This document shows positions 3,958 to 32,145 of a stretch of 59,649 nucleotides of DNA, one piece after another. The stretch comes from a virus. The position numbers and the translations under genes are program-made. Below the pieces are notes generated by a model. It was not told where the DNA came from. It did no database searches and saw nothing but the letters and a program-made list of their open reading frames with translations. The stretch covers positions 1 to 59,649 of the IMG/VR virus record IMGVR_UViG_3300034280_000211; one strand, written 5' to 3'. Positions within the stretch are counted from its first letter, which is position 1, and every line of letters begins with the position of its first letter.

Positions 3958-4106
3958 AGCGTCACCCTGGAGGCGAAACGGGGCTTAGAGGGCGAATCTG
4001 GGCCTCTGGCGGGAGGCGACACGCGGGCGACATGGGGGGAAAGGCGAGAAGCATCGGGTTTTGAAAAAAGTCGGGTGGGGAATTGACATGATTCCGACGA
4101 CGATTT

Positions 4107-4126
4107 GGGGGGGGGATGGGGGTGGG
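4107..4126 (+). other. G-rich tract with quadruplex potential
   Basis: Nine consecutive G, then AT, five G, T, three G. Runs of this kind can fold as a G-quadruplex. It lies in the largest intergenic region, upstream of the leftward virion operon. Confidence 0.35.
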
Positions 4127-4300
4127 TGTCGCCATGTCTGCCTTGGCCGTAGGCTTGCCCTAAGTCTAGCCGTGCCATTGACTTAGGTTTCCACGCTGCA
4201 CCCTGCGGTTAAGGCGGTGGTTTTTAAACGTCGTTTAGAAATGGCGATTCCCGGCCGGACGGTTGCGCGTGCATTGCCCATCCCTCCCCTTGCTATCCCC

Positions 4301-4326
4301 CCGTACACTACTGTTGTTCCGTACAC
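4301..4326. promoter_or_regulatory. Paired CCGTACACT motifs, possible operator
   Basis: CCGTACACT occurs at 4301 and 4319, with start points 18 bases apart. Another copy is at 4406 and an inverted copy at 18181-18189, where it forms half of a palindrome in a promoter spacer. The first and third copies extend to CCGTACACTACT. The recurrence in non-coding DNA suggests a binding site for a phage regulator. Confidence 0.4.
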
Positions 4327-4344
4327 TCCCCGCCCCGGCGCATG

Positions 4345-4376
4345 AAAAACCCCTCCCCCCGTTTAGAGGGGAGGGG
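4345..4376 (-). terminator. Intrinsic terminator of gene 4413-4976
   Basis: A perfect 9-bp stem (CCCCTCCCC at 4350-4358 with GGGGAGGGG at 4368-4376) has a 9-base loop and is followed on the minus strand by five T (4349-4345). It lies about 40 bases beyond the stop of the minus-strand gene. Confidence 0.85.
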
Positions 4377-4412
4377 TCGATAGCGTACGCTGTGCCAGTG
4401 TAACGCCGTACA

Positions 4413-4976
4413 CTACTCCGGGGAGAACCCGCAAGCCTCCCGGACTAACTCCCTCACGCCGGGGAGTCCGAGACTCTTGGCGATTCGGTAGGCCTTCCCG
4501 GCATGCATGGGCGTACGGGCGATACGCTCCACGGCGATTGCCACACTCTCCGGTGTCGGGTTGTGACGCTCCCGGAGACGCTCTCCCATGGCGAGCCTCT
4601 CCCCTGTGACGGTACGGCGTGATGCCCTACGCTGGCCCGTCCTGCCCTGCCATCCACTCCGTTCCATGAAACGCCGCACGCCGCACAGGGCCGACATGTG
4701 AGCCCCTCGCGGGATACGCTTCGTGCGGTTCTCCAGCCAGAAGACGTAGGCCGTACTGGCTGCCTCCTCAATCCGCTCCTGTAGGCCTCTCCGCTGGACT
4801 GCTGTTGCAATCCGTAGTTTCCCCTTGTCCGGGGAGAGTTCGGCCGAGCGTATGGATTTGCTGGCCGCACGCCGGAAGTAGTCCAGAACCGCCGGATGGT
4901 ATTCCGCCGGGAGATCGGCCGGGTTGTAATCGTCTTGCCGGGGCCACACGCACGCCATTCCGTACATAATGAACAT
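4413..4976 (-). CDS. Monocistronic regulatory-type protein (187 aa)
   Basis: I place the start at the ATG at 4976, behind a GAGGAG site eight bases away, although the frame stays open further upstream. The protein is basic. The N-terminal half is WPRQDDYNPADLPAEYHPAVL with aromatic residues. A helical Arg-rich middle follows, then a C-terminal segment with AGKAYRIAKSLGLPGVRELV, which resembles a helix-turn-helix. It has its own promoter and terminator and sits beside the divergent early genes, the usual place for a regulator. No family is recognised, so the regulatory role is inference. Confidence 0.7.
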   Translation of the reverse strand: MFIMYGMACVWPRQDDYNPADLPAEYHPAVLDYFRRAASKSIRSAELSPDKGKLRIATAVQRRGLQERIEEAASTAYVFWLENRTKRIPRGAHMSALCGVRRFMERSGWQGRTGQRRASRRTVTGERLAMGERLRERHNPTPESVAIAVERIARTPMHAGKAYRIAKSLGLPGVRELVREACGFSPE

Positions 4977-22135: not shown

Positions 22136-23144
22136 GGCGATCCCTTTCCTTTCTGAACAGGTTCTTCACCCAGCCCTCACGTAGGTCACGGCAGGCCCAA
22201 TGGATGTAGCCATTCGTTAACTCCGACATCTTCATGCCGGCGTACTTGCCCTTCAGCGGGTTGAAGTAAGTGCCGACGCACCGCGACCCGGCGCCAATGT
22301 CAAACTCGCGGCGGCGAATACTTCCAGATGCCTGCCCCCTGGTAGCGGCGCGGCGGGCTTCGATCTCCAACGCCAACTTCCGCTTGGCCTCTTCCTCCGC
22401 ACGCAGGGCAGCAAGCTCCGCTTCCGTCAGTGGAGCCTTGGCCTCCGCCGCACGGCGCTTCACCTCCTTCACAACCTCTGGCCCGGCCTGGACAAACATG
22501 TCCACGGCCGTGACGAGACGGTGATCCAGGCTGGCGTCGGTGCAGTCAACAATTTTGAAGTGCGGCTTGGCGCTCTCGGCTATGCGTTGCCGGCGGAGGT
22601 CGGGAGTGGAGCCCTGGAAATCGACCACTCCCGGCAATGGACGAGTAGCGCGGCCAACACACTGGAGCCAAAAGCTCCGAGAGCGAGTTGGTCTTCCGAG
22701 TATGAGTGTTGCAGTTGGAGGGAAGTCGAAGCCAACGGCCACAACTTGGCAATTAACCAGCACCTGAACATCTCGCGTCTTAAAACGTCGCAGATTCTCT
22801 CGGCGTTCATCCTCGTCCTGTTTGCCATGCACATAAACTGACGGAATTCCGTAGTTATTGTTGAGGTAATGGCACACCCCGGCAGCCGCAGCCACGCCCG
22901 CAGTGAACACCACGGTCTGGCCTTCCATCTCTTCCTGAGTGATCAGGCAGATTCGCTGAAGGGTTGCTTCTTTGACCATCTCGTCAGCCAGTGCGGATTG
23001 TTTAAAGTCGTCGCCTACGATTGCTATTCCGCTGAGATCCAAGGAGGCAACCTTGGAGATGCGACAGACGGGGGGCACGGACCAGCCGTTGTCGATTGCC
23101 CATCGGAGGTCGTAGTTACACAAGGATTGTTCGTAGAACTGCAT
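22113..23144 (-). CDS. DEAH helicase, C-terminal half (RecA-like domain 2)
   Basis: The 343-aa frame holds SLCNYDLRWAIDNGWSVPPV, EMEGQTVVFTAGVAAAAGVC, VLVNCQVVAVGFDFPPTATL and SRSFWLQCVGRATRPLPG, the motifs of the second helicase lobe including the QxxGRxxR arginine finger, then a charged coiled coil and a C-terminal region. It lacks Walker A and B, which are in the next frame upstream. ATG 23144 has an ideal site (GGAGG, 8-base spacer), so it can be made alone. Alternatively it is joined to the upstream half by a -1 shift at 23147-23153. Confidence 0.85.
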   Translation of the reverse strand: MQFYEQSLCNYDLRWAIDNGWSVPPVCRISKVASLDLSGIAIVGDDFKQSALADEMVKEATLQRICLITQEEMEGQTVVFTAGVAAAAGVCHYLNNNYGIPSVYVHGKQDEDERRENLRRFKTRDVQVLVNCQVVAVGFDFPPTATLILGRPTRSRSFWLQCVGRATRPLPGVVDFQGSTPDLRRQRIAESAKPHFKIVDCTDASLDHRLVTAVDMFVQAGPEVVKEVKRRAAEAKAPLTEAELAALRAEEEAKRKLALEIEARRAATRGQASGSIRRREFDIGAGSRCVGTYFNPLKGKYAGMKMSELTNGYIHWACRDLREGWVKNLFRKERDRRERARLN

Positions 23145-23629
23145 AGTAAACCCCTCCCGTCCATCCGAAATGGAGTCGCCGTAAACCCAGCAATCATCGC
23201 CCCGTCGTTTTGAAAGTAACGCAACATCTCAACCACTGGCTCACTGCACATCAGGTGAGCCTCGTCCACAATCACCAACTGAAAATCACGGAACCGCTTG
23301 TAGCGCGGCTCCCCGCCCCGCCGGCTGAGTAGCGTCTGCTTCGATGCCACAATCACCTTGCTGGGGTAATCCTCTTCCGCACGGAAGTCGGCCATCTCAA
23401 CATCAGGATCCTGCTCTGTGATGTCCCGCACCTTTTCAATCGCCTGCCAGACCAGCTCACGCATCGGGCAGATGATCAACGTCCGACCAAGAATCCGTGC
23501 AGCCAATGTCACAAAGATCACGGTCTTGCCAGCACCCGTAAACAAGCCGTTGAGCGTGGAGGTAACACCACGATCCATAGCCTGGAGGTTGGCGGTAACA
23601 ATCTCTTCTTGGTAGTCACGGAGTTCCAT
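23024..23629 (-). CDS. DEAH helicase, N-terminal half (RecA-like domain 1)
   Basis: Motifs are FTGAGKTVIF (Walker A, residues 31-40), LIICPMRELV (Ia), VIVDEAHLM (DEAH at 122-125) and GFTATPFRMDGRG (motif III). After Gly160 the zero frame continues 41 low-complexity residues to a stop at 23024, while the rest of the helicase lies in the -1 frame. The sequence at the switch is G GGT TTA, a canonical slippery heptamer, so a full UvsW- or superfamily-2-like helicase of about 500 residues could be made by frameshifting. A terminator ends just before the start codon and no ribosome-binding site is visible. Confidence 0.85.
   Translation of the reverse strand: MELRDYQEEIVTANLQAMDRGVTSTLNGLFTGAGKTVIFVTLAARILGRTLIICPMRELVWQAIEKVRDITEQDPDVEMADFRAEEDYPSKVIVASKQTLLSRRGGEPRYKRFRDFQLVIVDEAHLMCSEPVVEMLRYFQNDGAMIAGFTATPFRMDGRGLLCSSTNNPCVTTTSDGQSTTAGPCPPSVASPRLPPWISAE
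23147..23153 (-). promoter_or_regulatory. Candidate -1 ribosomal frameshift heptamer (G GGT TTA)
   Basis: Read in the zero frame of the N-terminal half, GGGTTTA is placed as G GGT TTA (GGT is codon 160). A -1 slip gives GGG TTT and the next codon, ACT, is in the frame of the C-terminal half, with ATG following it. The Shine-Dalgarno-like GGGAGGGG at 23158-23151 overlaps the site and could stimulate slipping or start the second frame. An indel in the assembly or an ordinary mutation is the alternative. Confidence 0.5.
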
Positions 23630-24016: not shown

Positions 24017-24652
24017 TTACGCCTCAACTTTCTGATAGGTGTCATCAAACTTCTTCTGGATCCGTTCCAGAACCGCCTTCGGGCATGCCTTCTCCAACAC
24101 ACGCTGCTTCACCAACGAGACAACCTTCTTTGCCTCGTCCACGCTCTTGGCTTCCGCGAGCGCCTTGGTCGCCTTGCTCTCAATCTCCATCCCCTTGGTG
24201 ACGGCATCCGCCTCCGACGAGCGGGCCGTGTGCTGCACGGAGTTGCCGTCGTCGTCAGCCTCACCGGAGAAACCTCCGGTGAGCGCCATGAGGAGCGTCC
24301 GCTTGGCATACGTCATCGCCGCGCCGAAGCCCTGCATGTCACCCTTCGGATTGACAAGCGGAGCTACGCCTGAGATGTACTGACCGCTGCTGTGCCGGAG
24401 CGTGCCGACCAGCACCCACTGCGAGCCTGCGAGACCCGGACGAAAATCGGGAAGCGCAATCCCGTTCTTTGTCAGCGGGCCACGCAGGGACTCGCAGCAT
24501 TGAGCAAACGAACTGAACTTGCTGCGGAAGTGCGGGTTCGCACTATCCAGAGCAACGGCCTGGTACTCCGATTGAGCCTTGGCCAAAGCCTTCGTCAGTT
24601 CAGCCGTCTCCGGCGAACTACTGGGCCCGAGAATGAATTGATTGTCCATCAT
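24017..24652 (-). CDS. erf: ERF-family single-strand annealing protein
   Basis: The start at 24652 is the first of two ATGs overlapping the exonuclease stop, with GGAGGAGG upstream. AQSEYQAVALDSANPHFRSK, FSSFAQCCESLRGPLTKNGI, SGQYISGVAPLVNPKGDMQG and FGAAMTYAKRTLLMALTGGF are the diagnostic segments of ERF recombinases. The C-terminal 70 residues are helical and charged. It anneals complementary single strands, pairs with the exonuclease upstream and the SSB downstream, and is likely to drive phage recombination and genome circularisation. Confidence 0.9.
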   Translation of the reverse strand: MMDNQFILGPSSSPETAELTKALAKAQSEYQAVALDSANPHFRSKFSSFAQCCESLRGPLTKNGIALPDFRPGLAGSQWVLVGTLRHSSGQYISGVAPLVNPKGDMQGFGAAMTYAKRTLLMALTGGFSGEADDDGNSVQHTARSSEADAVTKGMEIESKATKALAEAKSVDEAKKVVSLVKQRVLEKACPKAVLERIQKKFDDTYQKVEA

Positions 24653-25774: not shown

Positions 25775-26599
25775 ATGAGCCTGCTGAACCTCGTTGACCT
25801 GTACTGCAATCACGTTGGGGCCTCGCTGGGCTACCGATGGCAACTGATCGTTTTGGTCAGGCGTCTGGCAGAGTGGACGGTCACCGATTTGACCGTGCCC
25901 CAGATTGACGCATACCTCACCACCGCACTCGCCAAACTCTCGCCGTCCACTGTCCAGAACCATCGGAGAATGTTGGGGACACTCCGCCGATTCGCCCTCC
26001 GGGAGGGCCTTGCGGTGGATCAATGTACACGCACGCTGCGGCGAGTCAAGACGATCTGCCCGAACCCGATTGCGTGGACCCAGGCGGAAATTTCTCACTT
26101 GGTGGAGGTCGCCCGCGAGATGCCTGGACGCACGGCCTACTGCAACCTGTGCGAGGTGCTGCCGGCTTACGTGATCGTGGCCTACACCACTGGGCTTCGT
26201 GCCGGTGACATGCTGTCTATTCGCCATGACCAGATCCGTGGTGATCGCCTGTCCCTGGTGATCCACAAAACCAATCAGCCGCATGTTGCCGTGCTGACTG
26301 ATCAGTGCCTCGCTGCAATCCGTGAATTGCCCCGGCGAGGTGGGCGTATATTTGGCGACCTCATCCCTTGCCGTCAACTCTCACGGCATTTTCGCCGCCT
26401 AGTCCTGCGGGCTGGGATGGCAGGAAGTAGCAAGTTTCTGCGGAGATCCAGCGCAACTTTCGCTGAATTAAACGGGATAGACGCCACTGGACACCTGGGT
26501 CACAGGACGGCCCAGATGAAGAGGCACTACGTCGATATGGCGATCATGTCGCAAAATCGACGGGCCGTGCCCCCGCTAGAACTGGTTCACCACTCCTAG
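25775..26599 (+). CDS. int: Tyrosine recombinase (phage integrase)
   Basis: The 274-aa protein has a short N-terminal core-binding domain (PSTVQNHRRMLGTLRRFALR) and a catalytic domain with Arg142 (TTGLRAGDML), Lys165 (HKTNQPH), Arg223/224 (FLRRSSATFAELNG), His243 (HLGHRTAQ) and Tyr252 (KRHYVD). The usual His of the H-x-L-R box is replaced by Lys/Phe, seen in some diverged integrases. It should integrate the phage at the adjacent tRNA-like site. It has its own promoter and converges with the 26576 gene, overlapping it by 24 bases. Confidence 0.9.
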   Translation: MSLLNLVDLYCNHVGASLGYRWQLIVLVRRLAEWTVTDLTVPQIDAYLTTALAKLSPSTVQNHRRMLGTLRRFALREGLAVDQCTRTLRRVKTICPNPIAWTQAEISHLVEVAREMPGRTAYCNLCEVLPAYVIVAYTTGLRAGDMLSIRHDQIRGDRLSLVIHKTNQPHVAVLTDQCLAAIRELPRRGGRIFGDLIPCRQLSRHFRRLVLRAGMAGSSKFLRRSSATFAELNGIDATGHLGHRTAQMKRHYVDMAIMSQNRRAVPPLELVHHS

Positions 26600-29500
26600 C
26601 ATCTGGAGCGGATCCAGGTTGGCCTTCTTCTTCTCGCGAGCCCGCTTGGCGGCTTCGCTCTGGATGACCTTGTACAGCAAGTACATCTGCTGCTGTTCCC
26701 GGGGCATCGCACGGAGAACGTCTTCTGGCACGGTCACGTTTTCGTAGGTCCGCACGCCGGGGGTGGTTTGCAGCATCTCGTTGAGCATCTGCCGGGCTGC
26801 GAGTTGCTTGCTCCGCTCTTGGTCGATGTCCGTCAGCTTGGTCCCGGCCAGGAGATTCCAGGCTGCCTTCATGTAGCGGTCGGATGGGTCTAGCCGCTGG
26901 TCGGTCAACTGGCGGTACAGGCCAATGCCGCGTGACCCGAACGGCAGGAAGTTGACAGCCAACTGTTCCAGCGGCCTGCCCACCTCGCCCAGGTCTCGCT
27001 CTAGCACAGAGTAGAGGTCTGTCAGATCGCGGCCGGTGTATAGCTGCCGGTTCGTCACGTACTCCAGCGGGGCTTTGATGAGCGGATTCGTCATTCCCAA
27101 AACGTTGCTGCCGGTCTTCTTAATGGTGTCGGCCAAGGCGGAGGATGCCGTTGCCCCAACGCCGGGAGTGAAAAGCTGGAACGTGCTTTCCCACGGGAGA
27201 TCGACGTTGGTGAGGTAACGACGCAGCCCCTCCTTGCCAGAGCCACCCAGGATGAACGGGAGGTTTTCTGGAAGCGGGATCGCTGCGGATTGCCGCATGT
27301 ACTCCGGGAGGAAGCTGTCTTCCGTGGGCTGCGTGCCCCGCGTAACGGCCCGCACCGACTGGCCCATCAATCCCCCTGGGCGATACAGGAGGTTGTTGGC
27401 GATGCTGGGGATGATGCCTTTCTGGAAGCTATAGAAGGGCATCGCCCGCTTCAGGACGTTTCTCTCAAAGTCGGTAAAGGCAGAGGGCGAGTAGTCCACC
27501 TGACTCAGGCGAACCAGATCCGCTGCCTCCCCCGGGTCAACTCCCTTACGCAACTGGTTCAGGAACGTGCCGCCACGAAGCGCATCTTCGACTCGCGAGC
27601 CAAGGGCATCGTTCGCCACAAGCAGCGGGTTGGTGTTCCGTGGGTTTGGATTCTGTGTAATTCCAACTCCACGCATGCTGAAGAAGTCGTTGAGGAAGTC
27701 GCCCCACGATCTTCCCTGCCGGTAGAACGCATCGGCTACAGATGGCTCGTTGCCAGCGCCAAGCCATGTCCCTCGGATCTCTTGCTCCGGGAGGTTAGTG
27801 ACATCATCGAAGATCGTTCCGCCGCCAATGCGATTTGCCCCGGTGAGATCCTGGAAGCGATCAATGCGTTGCTGCGGCGTCAGGTCCTGGAAGCCGGGGG
27901 CGTTTCGCAGGCGCCTCTCCAGGGCGTTGTAGTTCCCGCCTGATGCACGAAATGCCGCCCACCAGTCCAGCGGATTGAAGGCCCCGAAAGTCGCCGCATT
28001 CAACGCGCCGGAATAGGTGTTGCGAACATGGAACGCCGGGGCTGCGAGGGCACCGACCTTAAACGCATTCGTGAACTGGTCGATAGTCCCAACGATCCCG
28101 CGCTCCACATCGCCCAATCGGGTTGGCTGCGAGAGAGTTTTGAGGGACGCAACCAAGTTTTCCGGGACGGCAAGGTTTGTCGAATCCTGGCGGAATCGGC
28201 TTTGCCACATTCGGCGAAAGTTCTGCGCGTCATACCCAAGTCGGGATGCGGCGTCTGAAAGCTGGACCATTCCGTCCGCGAGGCCATTGGGGCCGATGGG
28301 CTGGATGGAGGCCTCTAGGCGGGCCGTCACACGATCCGTGTTCGCCAAGGCACGGTTCTGTCCACGCTCATAGCGGCGGAGGTTCGTCCATCCAGGGGTG
28401 TCGAAGATGCCGGTGTTGTTCTGTGCGAACTGGAGGTCTGCGCCGCGCAGGAGATTAATCAAATCATCCTGCCGGGTGTTCATGCGTTCCCGCACGGGAG
28501 CGAGCATTGCAGCGCGCTCCTGCGACGACGCTGCCTGGAACTCCGGTGAGCGGATGACCTGCCGATACTCCTCCTGGAACGGCCGTTGCACGCCGATGGT
28601 GTCGAAGGCGCGGTTCATTATTCCACGCGCCGGATCAGCGTCAGCGTTGATCAACGCCTGCTGAAGTGCGGCAGAGTCCAAGTTGGCATTGGTGTTGCCG
28701 GTCAGCATTCGGAACGTACGCTGCCCGCCAGCGATGTCCGTGTAATCCTTTCGACCACGCCCAAAATTGTCAGTTGTGTTGAGGACGGTTTCTCCCTGCG
28801 TCCACGGGCGCTCAACGCGGCCCACCGCATTCGGGCGGTCGGGATTCAGGATGCGCTGCCACCACTTAGTTTGGCGTGGGAAGAACTCTGTTCCGTACTG
28901 GCTCTGCCACGATTGCGTGGGCAACCCAGCGGCTTCCGCGAGCCCGCGTGCCCGCCGTGTCGAAGATTGATACAGGTCGCGAATCTCGCGGAACTCAGGG
29001 ACGTTCTCCAAAACCCAGTCTGAAACACTGTCGCCGCTAGTTTTGAGTACGGGGCCGTATACACCAGGCGCCGTGGGAACAGACGAGGACTCCGCAAAAT
29101 CAACCAACGCCCGCTGGAGGTCTGTGCTGTTGAAAGATCGGAGGCGATCTGGGATGGGGACGTTAGCGCCATTGATGTTGGCCACATCCGGTACGTCCGC
29201 ACTCATTGCCTCTCGCAACTGCCGTGAGCGGAGAAGCTCCTGGGCCTCGTCGGCGCGATCTGACGCTGCCCTAGCGAGACGGGAATCCCACTGAACATCG
29301 TAATCCAGGCTTTTTACGGGGGCTTTGAATCCAGCGTACAAAGCCCTAACCGCAGGGCCGGTGTATGGGTTGGTCTTGGATGCCTCTCCGAGATAGTCCA
29401 ACCCCTGCGCTACCCGGTCACCAAACGCGCCGCCCAGCAAGTCGGTGCTGAGGCCGATGTTGGTTCCCGGAATGCGGACATCCATCAACCGTGCGGCTGG

Positions 29501-30193
29501 CGCATCTAGGTTGTTGGGATCAACCCCGAACCGCTCCGCCTGCTGCCGCCACCGGGCCATGGCATCGACTGGGTCCGGAGATTCAGCGATAGCCTGACGC
29601 GGCGTTAAGCCACGGAGATACTCGCGTACGCCCGTGCCGGCTTCGCGAGCCTGGGCACCGCGCGCCACTGCCGCAGCAGGATCCAGCCCCTCGTAGGCTG
29701 CCTCTGCCGCGTTGCGGAGTCTCCCGGCCCCTTGCAGCGCCTTTCCGGTGGGCGTCAGAGCCCCGCGCCCAAGGATCGCCAATGGGTTCGCGTAGGTCAG
29801 GGGGTCCAAAAGGATCTCGCCCGCCAGCCCGAGCCCGAAGTTGCTCCACGTATCTTCGTCGCCAACCATGCCGTACTGACGAAGAAGCTCTCGGCCGGTC
29901 ACGCGCTCGTCGGAGGTTCCGAAGACACTAAGCGGCTTCCCAGCAAGAACGCCACGCACAAGCGCCCCGGGGCTATCCAACAAATAGCCAACAGCCGACA
30001 GGCCGCTAGAGCCCATCTCCGCAAGCGAGCGGAGCATGCCACGCCTCCCCTGCTCTGGCATGAGGTCGGAGATTGTGGCCCGGCCAGGAGTCAGCATCCC
30101 CGTGTCGGGGTCATAATCCGGCGTCAGCCGGGCTTGTTCGCCAATGATCCCGTACGGATCGTAGATGTCGAACAGTGGGGAGCGAATGGCCAT
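26576..30193 (-). CDS. Very large internal virion-type protein (1205 aa)
   Basis: This is the longest gene of the window. The N-terminal part has SDLMPEQGRRGMLRSLAEMG, LDSPGALVRGVLAGKPLSVF, GLGLAGEILLDPLTYANPLA and Ala-rich helices. The centre carries FGRGRKDYTDIAGGQ. The C-terminal half has helical and amphipathic segments (FKVGALAAPAFHVRNTYSGA, FERNVLKRAMPFYSFQKGII). Large, helix-rich, Ala- and Gln-rich proteins at the end of podovirus late operons are usually ejection (internal core) proteins that pass into the cell with the DNA. No lytic transglycosylase motif was recognised. The last gene of the operon. Confidence 0.8.
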   Translation of the reverse strand: MAIRSPLFDIYDPYGIIGEQARLTPDYDPDTGMLTPGRATISDLMPEQGRRGMLRSLAEMGSSGLSAVGYLLDSPGALVRGVLAGKPLSVFGTSDERVTGRELLRQYGMVGDEDTWSNFGLGLAGEILLDPLTYANPLAILGRGALTPTGKALQGAGRLRNAAEAAYEGLDPAAAVARGAQAREAGTGVREYLRGLTPRQAIAESPDPVDAMARWRQQAERFGVDPNNLDAPAARLMDVRIPGTNIGLSTDLLGGAFGDRVAQGLDYLGEASKTNPYTGPAVRALYAGFKAPVKSLDYDVQWDSRLARAASDRADEAQELLRSRQLREAMSADVPDVANINGANVPIPDRLRSFNSTDLQRALVDFAESSSVPTAPGVYGPVLKTSGDSVSDWVLENVPEFREIRDLYQSSTRRARGLAEAAGLPTQSWQSQYGTEFFPRQTKWWQRILNPDRPNAVGRVERPWTQGETVLNTTDNFGRGRKDYTDIAGGQRTFRMLTGNTNANLDSAALQQALINADADPARGIMNRAFDTIGVQRPFQEEYRQVIRSPEFQAASSQERAAMLAPVRERMNTRQDDLINLLRGADLQFAQNNTGIFDTPGWTNLRRYERGQNRALANTDRVTARLEASIQPIGPNGLADGMVQLSDAASRLGYDAQNFRRMWQSRFRQDSTNLAVPENLVASLKTLSQPTRLGDVERGIVGTIDQFTNAFKVGALAAPAFHVRNTYSGALNAATFGAFNPLDWWAAFRASGGNYNALERRLRNAPGFQDLTPQQRIDRFQDLTGANRIGGGTIFDDVTNLPEQEIRGTWLGAGNEPSVADAFYRQGRSWGDFLNDFFSMRGVGITQNPNPRNTNPLLVANDALGSRVEDALRGGTFLNQLRKGVDPGEAADLVRLSQVDYSPSAFTDFERNVLKRAMPFYSFQKGIIPSIANNLLYRPGGLMGQSVRAVTRGTQPTEDSFLPEYMRQSAAIPLPENLPFILGGSGKEGLRRYLTNVDLPWESTFQLFTPGVGATASSALADTIKKTGSNVLGMTNPLIKAPLEYVTNRQLYTGRDLTDLYSVLERDLGEVGRPLEQLAVNFLPFGSRGIGLYRQLTDQRLDPSDRYMKAAWNLLAGTKLTDIDQERSKQLAARQMLNEMLQTTPGVRTYENVTVPEDVLRAMPREQQQMYLLYKVIQSEAAKRAREKKKANLDPLQMLGVVNQF

Positions 30194-32145
30194 TACTGCG
30201 GTGCGGTGGCGTAGTCAGGGTGTGCGACACGCCAAGCAGACAGGAGTGATCCACGCCCCTGCTGGCCAGGGATGTCGCTGTTTATGCCGTACTCCTGAAC
30301 TATCGACCGGCGCGTTTCGGGGTCTGTGATTCCAAGGCTCACCAACATGGCGTCCAGTCTTGCGGCGTCCTCGGTGAAGAAGCCATTCCAAGTCTGATCG
30401 GCCTTGGCTGCCATATTGCGGAACGCGGCCTGCGCGGACGGGTGCTGGAGGTTGCCTCGCAAAATCTGCACGGCTCCAGGCCCGTACATTGAAGATGCCT
30501 CCTGCTCCTTGCGAGCTTGTTCCGCCAGCCCCTGCGCCTTCGCTGCGGCAGCCATTGCGGCGTCCTGCCTTTCGCGGGCGAGGCCAAGTTCAGCGCGGGA
30601 CACATCGCCTTGGTTCTGAATCTGCGCCAGTTGCGCTGCAAGTGCCGTGCCTTGCTGATCGCCCCGGCGCCGGCCTTCTTCCTGCTGAAGGTCAAACTGC
30701 TTGGAACGCTCCTGCCACTCCAACTCGCGAGCGGCACGCTCTTCGGCAAATCGACGCTCATCTGCCTCGCGTGCGGCCTGCCGTTCCTCGCGAGTCAGTG
30801 TGCGATCCTTCTCACGCTCTTCCCGAGCTTCGGCGCGAGCGGCATCTGCCTCTTTGAATCTCGCATCGTTCTCAACGCGAAGCAGATCCAGGCGGCGATC
30901 CCACTCATCTCCACGCGGGCCAGTGCGCTCGCCGTATCGCATACGGTTTTGGATTACGTCCTGCTGCTGCTCTGGCGTCAGGCGGTCGAAGGCAACAGTC
31001 GCTGCGCGTGTCCCCATGGGGCCGCTAGTGGGACGGCCTCCAGCCAGCATGGTCTGGGACTTCCACGCATTGCGGCGAGCGATAGCGTCATCGTCCGTCG
31101 CGCCCTGCGCAGCAAGGCGGAGTTCTTCGATGGACATCTCCTGAGCCTTGTCAGAAGTAATGCCTGCACGGCGGGCAAGGCGGCGCTTGTCCACGTTTTC
31201 AATCTGTGCGGCCTGCCGTTCGCCGGGGCGATAGACGTTCTGCTGGCCGAGCGGCGATGCTACCGTTTCTGTAGTCCAGCCGGCGTCCGTCAGGTCTCGG
31301 CGTTCCCCGGATCGCCCCGCCGCCCCGGGGAAGCGGTTGGGGTTTTCGCCGGTAATCGAACCCGGGGGATACCCAACTGAGTATCCGACAGAGCCATCGG
31401 GATTCAGGACGGGGACCATTCCGCGTGCAGCCATTGCCCTGTCTTTGGGCGATGGCTTGTATTCGTTGCGACGGCCGTCCCACTCGCGAGTCGTGTAGTC
31501 CTCAATGGCTTCGGGGTCGTTAATCATTCCCGGCTCTGGGACGGGGCCACCAAACGGCATGCGTGGTGCCGGGACGCGCTGGTATCCAGGGCCAGCCTCG
31601 GACTCACCGGGCCGCATGTTGGCGGTGGATCCGCCGGCAGCGGCGGGCTCCTGGAGTCCCGTGGCCCGGTCGTATGACGCCTTCCTGCGGTCAACGCCTG
31701 CCGCCCACTGGTCGGATGCTGCCAGCCTCTGTTCGCGATTCATGCCGGTTTCAGCTTCGGCCATGCCGGCAGAGAATGCGTTGTAGTCTCCCGGTGCTGC
31801 CTGCGGCTCCATGGCGTCGTAGAAGATGCCCGGATCTCCGGAAAGGCTCTGATGCTGTGCGGCCCTCGCAGCCGCTGCCTGCATGGCTCGCTGCGGTTCA
31901 ATTCCGCTGGCAGACAGTTCAGCGGCGTAGGCGCGAACGGCCGTCGCAACGTCGCCGCCAGAGTCCTCCAACACTGCGGCAAATGCATCCGTCCCAACGC
32001 GCCTGCGGAGCGGCGGGTCTGGGGTGATTGGCGAGGATGCCGCTTCTACTGGGTCTAGGTCTGACGGAGCCAGCGGTGGGGCCATACCCCAGGCGCGGAC
32101 ATTAGGGAACCCGAGAGGCCCATAGGGGAGAGTTTTCCTGGCCAT
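30193..32145 (-). CDS. Large coiled-coil virion protein (650 aa)
   Basis: The first 320 residues are Pro-, Gly- and Ala-rich and probably disordered. Residues about 390-540 form a very long charged helix (EARFKEADAARAEAREEREK, then RTLTREERQAAREADERRFA and EERAARELEWQERSKQFDLQ), a classic coiled coil, followed by a helical C-terminal domain. It is probably an internal or ejection protein that acts with the 1205-aa neighbour, joined to it by a stop-start overlap. Confidence 0.8.
   Translation of the reverse strand: MARKTLPYGPLGFPNVRAWGMAPPLAPSDLDPVEAASSPITPDPPLRRRVGTDAFAAVLEDSGGDVATAVRAYAAELSASGIEPQRAMQAAAARAAQHQSLSGDPGIFYDAMEPQAAPGDYNAFSAGMAEAETGMNREQRLAASDQWAAGVDRRKASYDRATGLQEPAAAGGSTANMRPGESEAGPGYQRVPAPRMPFGGPVPEPGMINDPEAIEDYTTREWDGRRNEYKPSPKDRAMAARGMVPVLNPDGSVGYSVGYPPGSITGENPNRFPGAAGRSGERRDLTDAGWTTETVASPLGQQNVYRPGERQAAQIENVDKRRLARRAGITSDKAQEMSIEELRLAAQGATDDDAIARRNAWKSQTMLAGGRPTSGPMGTRAATVAFDRLTPEQQQDVIQNRMRYGERTGPRGDEWDRRLDLLRVENDARFKEADAARAEAREEREKDRTLTREERQAAREADERRFAEERAARELEWQERSKQFDLQQEEGRRRGDQQGTALAAQLAQIQNQGDVSRAELGLARERQDAAMAAAAKAQGLAEQARKEQEASSMYGPGAVQILRGNLQHPSAQAAFRNMAAKADQTWNGFFTEDAARLDAMLVSLGITDPETRRSIVQEYGINSDIPGQQGRGSLLSAWRVAHPDYATAPQ

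Follow-up and report, generated by a model that had tools for sequence, protein, structure and literature searches.

The helicase locus and its neighbours

The window analysed here is the whole of a 59,649-nucleotide stretch of viral DNA (IMG/VR record IMGVR_UViG_3300034280_000211). On its minus strand, an operon-like run of genes leads from an exonuclease through an Erf-type annealase and SSB to two helicase ORFs. The features of this region are as follows.

25563-24649, minus strand: PD-(D/E)XK exonuclease (PHROG 'exonuclease VIII', Pfam DUF3799)
ending at 24017, minus strand: Erf-type single-strand annealing protein
24014-23685, minus strand: SSB, directly upstream of the helicase ORFs
23678-23639, minus strand: terminator-like hairpin between ssb and ORF1 (13-bp stem, TTTTTT tail)
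23629-23024, minus strand: ORF1, lobe 1 (RecA1) of an SF2 helicase, 201 aa, with Walker A (GAGKT), DEAH and TAT
23158-23151, minus strand: Shine-Dalgarno sequence GGGAGGGG of ORF2, 6 nt before ATG 23144, pairing with the anti-SD at -10.8 kcal/mol
23153-23147, minus strand: GGGTTTA heptamer in the register of a -1 slip (X XXY YYZ)
23144-23024, minus strand: overlap of ORF1 and ORF2, 121 nt (+121 to -463 nt in relatives)
23144-22113, minus strand: ORF2, lobe 2 (RecA2, Helicase_C, motif VI QCVGRATR) and a C-terminal extension, 343 aa, starting at ATG 23144

SF2 helicases close two RecA lobes on ATP, and these lobes are normally tied together in one chain. The motifs expected of such an enzyme are all found by Pfam searches and alignments, with Walker A, DEAH and TAT in RecA1 and motifs IV-VI in RecA2. 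The two lobes are, however, not contained in one polypeptide in the window, as they are in a sister clade, but lie in two ORFs, the second being in the -1 frame relative to the first. ORF1 matches the Pfam families ResIII and DEAD (2e-21 and 2e-13) and ORF2 matches Helicase_C (4e-16), while the C-terminal third of ORF2 gave no match in the Pfam search. Consecutive stretches of phrog_16 ('DNA helicase') are matched by the two ORFs, at positions 271-424 and 428-641. The conserved portion of ORF1 stops near 23158, and its last ~40 codons form a non-conserved read-on tail. A preliminary description, made from the letters of this DNA, had proposed a helicase split over two frames in just this way, and the ORFs, the Pfam matches and the relatives described below confirm it.

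The best profile match of each half is RadD (YejH), a DNA repair protein of E. coli that resembles SF2 helicases (PDB 7r7j, 8h5y, 6jde; E = 4e-17 and 5e-15). RadD is also the best PDB fold match of a modelled fused relative, L002, and is the closest solved relative over both lobes, but at only ~25% identity. In the L002 model (mean pLDDT 75.6), the break maps to the linker between the RecA lobes, which corresponds to low-confidence residues 151-160. Unlike the window helicase, RadD is a single chain, and the profile match leaves the phage C-terminal region beyond RecA2 uncovered. RadD binds SSB and speeds up RecA strand exchange (PMC10238739, PMC8887467); in the window, ssb is the gene directly upstream of the helicase. 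Given these neighbours and its relation to RadD, the helicase may act in phage recombination or in restarting replication, where it would serve the adjacent exonuclease, annealase and SSB module. Also on the minus strand, two large ORFs (26576-30193 and 30193-32145; 1205 and 650 aa) had no PHROG or Pfam match at the thresholds used.

A break shared among relatives

One rival explanation is that the helicase gene is intact and only appears split through an indel from assembly or sequencing, or that it was broken recently. Fused relatives do exist at ~63% identity (L002 and others), and a run of G sits at the junction. Relatives were collected by scanning IMG/VR with ORF2 as the query. Among the 46 obtained, the RadD/XPB-like helicase is broken at the same point, directly after TATPFRMDG, in 32, and is fused in the remaining 14, so that alignment with homologues, which the preliminary description had proposed as a check, bears out the conservation of the split. 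The closest relative, L001, is a separate contig with 96% protein identity to the window and the same overlap and frame relation. Its DNA identity to the window is ~93% in ORF1, 93-95% around the junction and 89% in the rest of ORF2, and the differences fall mostly at third codon positions in both ORFs. The key motif residues are invariant on both halves in alignments of 18 sequences, which indicates that both halves are under selection. With L001 and 31 further split relatives from the first scan, all with motifs conserved on both halves, an indel or a freshly broken gene is extremely improbable. The comparisons confirm the split as genuine and not an assembly error, and annotated pairs of lobe-1 and lobe-2 ORFs in this family are not to be taken for frameshift errors.

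More distant IMG/VR relatives are fused, with one apparent exception. L091, a viral contig of 188 kb, carries a related helicase with a TAA a little beyond the lobe-1 TATP motif (past the match at 4001-4456), but was rejected as a further split because the gene is otherwise continuous with this single in-frame stop; stop recoding, mutation or error are possible causes. A collection of isolated phages contained no relative at 60% identity or above. Tunturi_3, in which a match overlapped two features, was likewise rejected, since this isolate, the only one whose gene was examined, has one continuous helicase gene. L182 is a fused family member found on a contig of 55 kb that was binned as a Pirellulaceae (Planctomycetota) MAG, which points tentatively to the hosts that these phages may have.

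In two lineages, one represented by L011, L015 and L045 (a single sequence type) and the other by L019, a separate gene of ~150 codons stands between the halves. It encodes a small, probably coiled-coil protein (L015:4534-4998; L019:1634-2086), for which no PHROG or Pfam match was found, and a scan of viral contigs found no occurrence of the gene elsewhere. Such an arrangement raises the question of whether a mobile element (homing endonuclease, intron or intein) once broke the gene, leaving halves that are rejoined by splicing, for which genes split by insertion in T4-like phages provide a precedent (PMC2988022). Against this, the window has no Rfam match, the intervening protein resembles no PHROG or Pfam family, and most relatives have no DNA between the halves at all. 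Splicing of the halves today is thus very unlikely; an old element could conceivably have stood at the origin of the split.

Translation of the second half

Two routes to lobe 2 had been put forward in the preliminary description, namely programmed -1 frameshifting at GGGTTTA and an independent start at ATG 23144, alone or together. The sequence details behind both hold up. The heptamer occupies 23153-23147 in zero-frame register, exactly at the junction, a -1 slip there would yield a continuous helicase computed at ~504 residues (about 500 had been proposed), and a Shine-Dalgarno site overlaps the heptamer with a spacer of 8 nt to ATG 23144 when counted from the GGAGG core of GGGAGGGG. The window also keeps an open -1 path, and the heptamer is present in L001. 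Of the 8781 codon positions that the large ORFs of the window contain, 20 have an in-frame XXXYYYZ heptamer (4 when YYY is AAA or TTT), which predicts 0.03-0.15 chance occurrences in the 68 codons available for a productive slip. GGGTTTA is therefore mildly unusual by itself, but the G run of the Shine-Dalgarno site makes up half of it.

If frameshifting were the means of making this helicase, the slippery site, the open path and the frame relation would be expected to persist among split relatives, but none of them is consistently kept. The heptamer is carried only by the window and L001 (L172 has a G run only), and since the DNA of these two is 93-95% identical around the junction, its conservation in L001 is of little weight. 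A large clade has a stop codon in the lobe-2 frame shortly before the ATG (GGAG TAA CGC ATG or GGAG TGA AGC ATG), leaving that frame open only from -3, so that ribosomes slipping upstream would terminate; no XXXYYYZ was found in the possible slip zone of the relatives with such a stop. In others, lobe 1 ends where lobe 2 starts, as TGATG (L039), ATGA (L050, L054), TAGTATG (L023) or ATGTATGA (L017). One clade has the opposite frame relation (L010, L017, L023 and L046), and the overlap from ORF2 start to ORF1 stop takes values of 121, 97, 88, 52, 23, 8, 4, 1, -1, -448 and -463 nt, the inserted genes also arguing against a slip. Within the window, the Shine-Dalgarno G run overlaps the heptamer rather than lying upstream of it, and the sequence 3' of the heptamer folds only weakly (108 nt, z = -1.57; 63 nt, z = +1.30). 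The comparison of relatives leads us to reject programmed frameshifting as the mechanism of the family and strongly supports the two-polypeptide alternative. For the window phage itself, a ~504-residue frameshift product, alone or beside free lobe 2, is unlikely, and the heptamer is probably incidental; low-level frameshifting confined to the window and L001 is conceivable from their sequences.

A second cistron is expected to carry its own start signals, and a ribosome-binding site and start codon can be recognized for the second half. Pairing with the anti-SD has a median of -8.6 kcal/mol at split ORF2 starts and of -3.4 kcal/mol at internal ATG or GTG codons of fused genes (p = 3e-16, which overstates certainty since the relatives are not independent). 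GGAG, GAGG or AGGA precedes 28 of the 32 split ORF2 starts, whereas in fused genes the Met codons at the equivalent position reach -6.0 kcal/mol at best. In L001, the ATG of the window is replaced by GTG, so that a start codon is retained. The constant element among split relatives is a start codon, accompanied in nearly all cases by a ribosome-binding site. Across diverse split relatives, synonymous variation in ORF2 amounts to 0.16 in the first 10 codons and to an ordinary 0.60-0.70 thereafter, even though the tail of ORF1 extends into these later codons, a comparison that involves few sites and whose certainty is likewise overstated by the non-independence of the relatives; as supporting evidence, scarce synonymous change in the first ten codons only fits a translation start better than dual coding.

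The overlap itself is less easily accommodated, as a read-on tail of 121 nt is long for a simple coupled pair and counts against two cistrons. The ORF1 tail was considered as a selected protein segment, and this was rejected because overlap codons 11-29 show no clear loss of synonymous variation. CTA occurs at +88 in 7 sequences, which at first suggested that rare codons at this position had been selected to bring about an early stop of ORF1; the idea was dropped because synonymous-codon resampling showed no significantly earlier stop (lowest P 0.098). In the window, the ORF2 Shine-Dalgarno sequence can pair with upstream sequence (fold of 23200-23139, z = -1.94), and translation of ORF1 may free or open it, which we offer as a suggestion only.

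A probable two-part motor and its history

The split and its conservation, the independence from frame, the ribosome-binding sites and the integrity of the motifs on both halves can all be read from the sequences. On this basis, we consider it probable (roughly 0.87) that this is a two-subunit SF2 (RadD/XPB-like) helicase whose lobes are separate polypeptides from two cistrons that overlap on a single mRNA. Translation of lobe 2 would begin from its own strong Shine-Dalgarno sequence and ATG inside the 3' part of the lobe-1 frame. In SF2 enzymes, the arginine finger of motif VI works on the same ATP as Walker A/B. Here, Walker A/B are on lobe 1 and the arginine finger is on lobe 2, so that hydrolysis should require assembly of the halves, the shared ATP site presumably forming as they associate.

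The history of the break was followed in a tree of 55 sequences rooted on distant fused helicases. The split gene of L050 is basal, followed by one clade of 27 split genes, including the window, and another of 6 split and 15 fused genes, so that fused genes nest inside the split family. One fission and one re-fusion suffice to explain this pattern, the alternative being three separate fissions. A single clade of split genes, as expected from a single origin without reversal, was rejected by the AU test (p = 0.004). Trees of single lobes are weaker and need three changes. At the base of the fused clade, L129 has two extra residues at the junction, encoded by a G-rich stretch, GCAGAGGGCGGG, which resembles a leftover Shine-Dalgarno site. 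Re-fusion is likely, although not proven by these sequences.

Enzymes divided over adjacent genes have been described in other systems. The chains of Aeh1 nrdA and of the DNA polymerase of Aeromonas phages (gene 43A/43B) are each encoded by two adjacent genes, and the halves reassemble; these splits are associated with homing endonucleases or intercistronic sequence (PMC2988022). In contrast, the cistrons of most helicase relatives overlap, with no endonuclease present, and the helicase is cut between two RecA lobes with a common ATP site. Reverse gyrase, an SF2-containing enzyme, naturally consists of two polypeptides in Nanoarchaeum equitans and Methanopyrus kandleri (PMC8185306), divided at the helicase/topoisomerase boundary in the former and elsewhere in the latter, with no break described between RecA lobes. 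The DISARM proteins DrmA and DrmB spread an SF2 helicase system over adjacent genes (PMC12458937), but the separate gene encodes the accessory OB-DUF1998 part and the helicase core stays in DrmA. Our search of the open-access literature turned up no report of a natural SF2 helicase whose RecA lobes are separated by such a cut. Thus, reassembling split phage enzymes are already known, and the cut between RecA lobes appears to be new.

The evidence leaves about even odds for a broader reading, a naturally heterodimeric SF2 motor with its ATP site at the subunit interface, its activity set by assembly and by the translation ratio of the two cistrons, kept through deep divergence and reversed by re-fusion at least once. 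A phage family with separate lobes would offer a natural system for asking how tight the tie between lobes must be and whether assembly regulates the motor, and its split and fused members also allow gene fission and fusion to be followed.

In nearly all of the split relatives examined, lobe 1 is closely preceded by a strong terminator-like hairpin whose stem is long and GC-rich. Besides the window, it was seen in the split L001, L008, L010, L015, L019, L020, L024, L028, L030, L034, L038 and L039 and in the fused L018. CTCC, which is complementary to Shine-Dalgarno sequences, recurs in its loop or at the loop edge. In the window, the ATG of ORF1 comes directly after the U-rich tail of the hairpin, without a Shine-Dalgarno sequence. 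Elsewhere on the minus strand, the window has long GC-rich hairpins followed by T-rich tails only at 55756-55717 and 4378-4348, and the first of these is followed by TTTATGGAACCA, with a start codon directly after the tail, as at ORF1.
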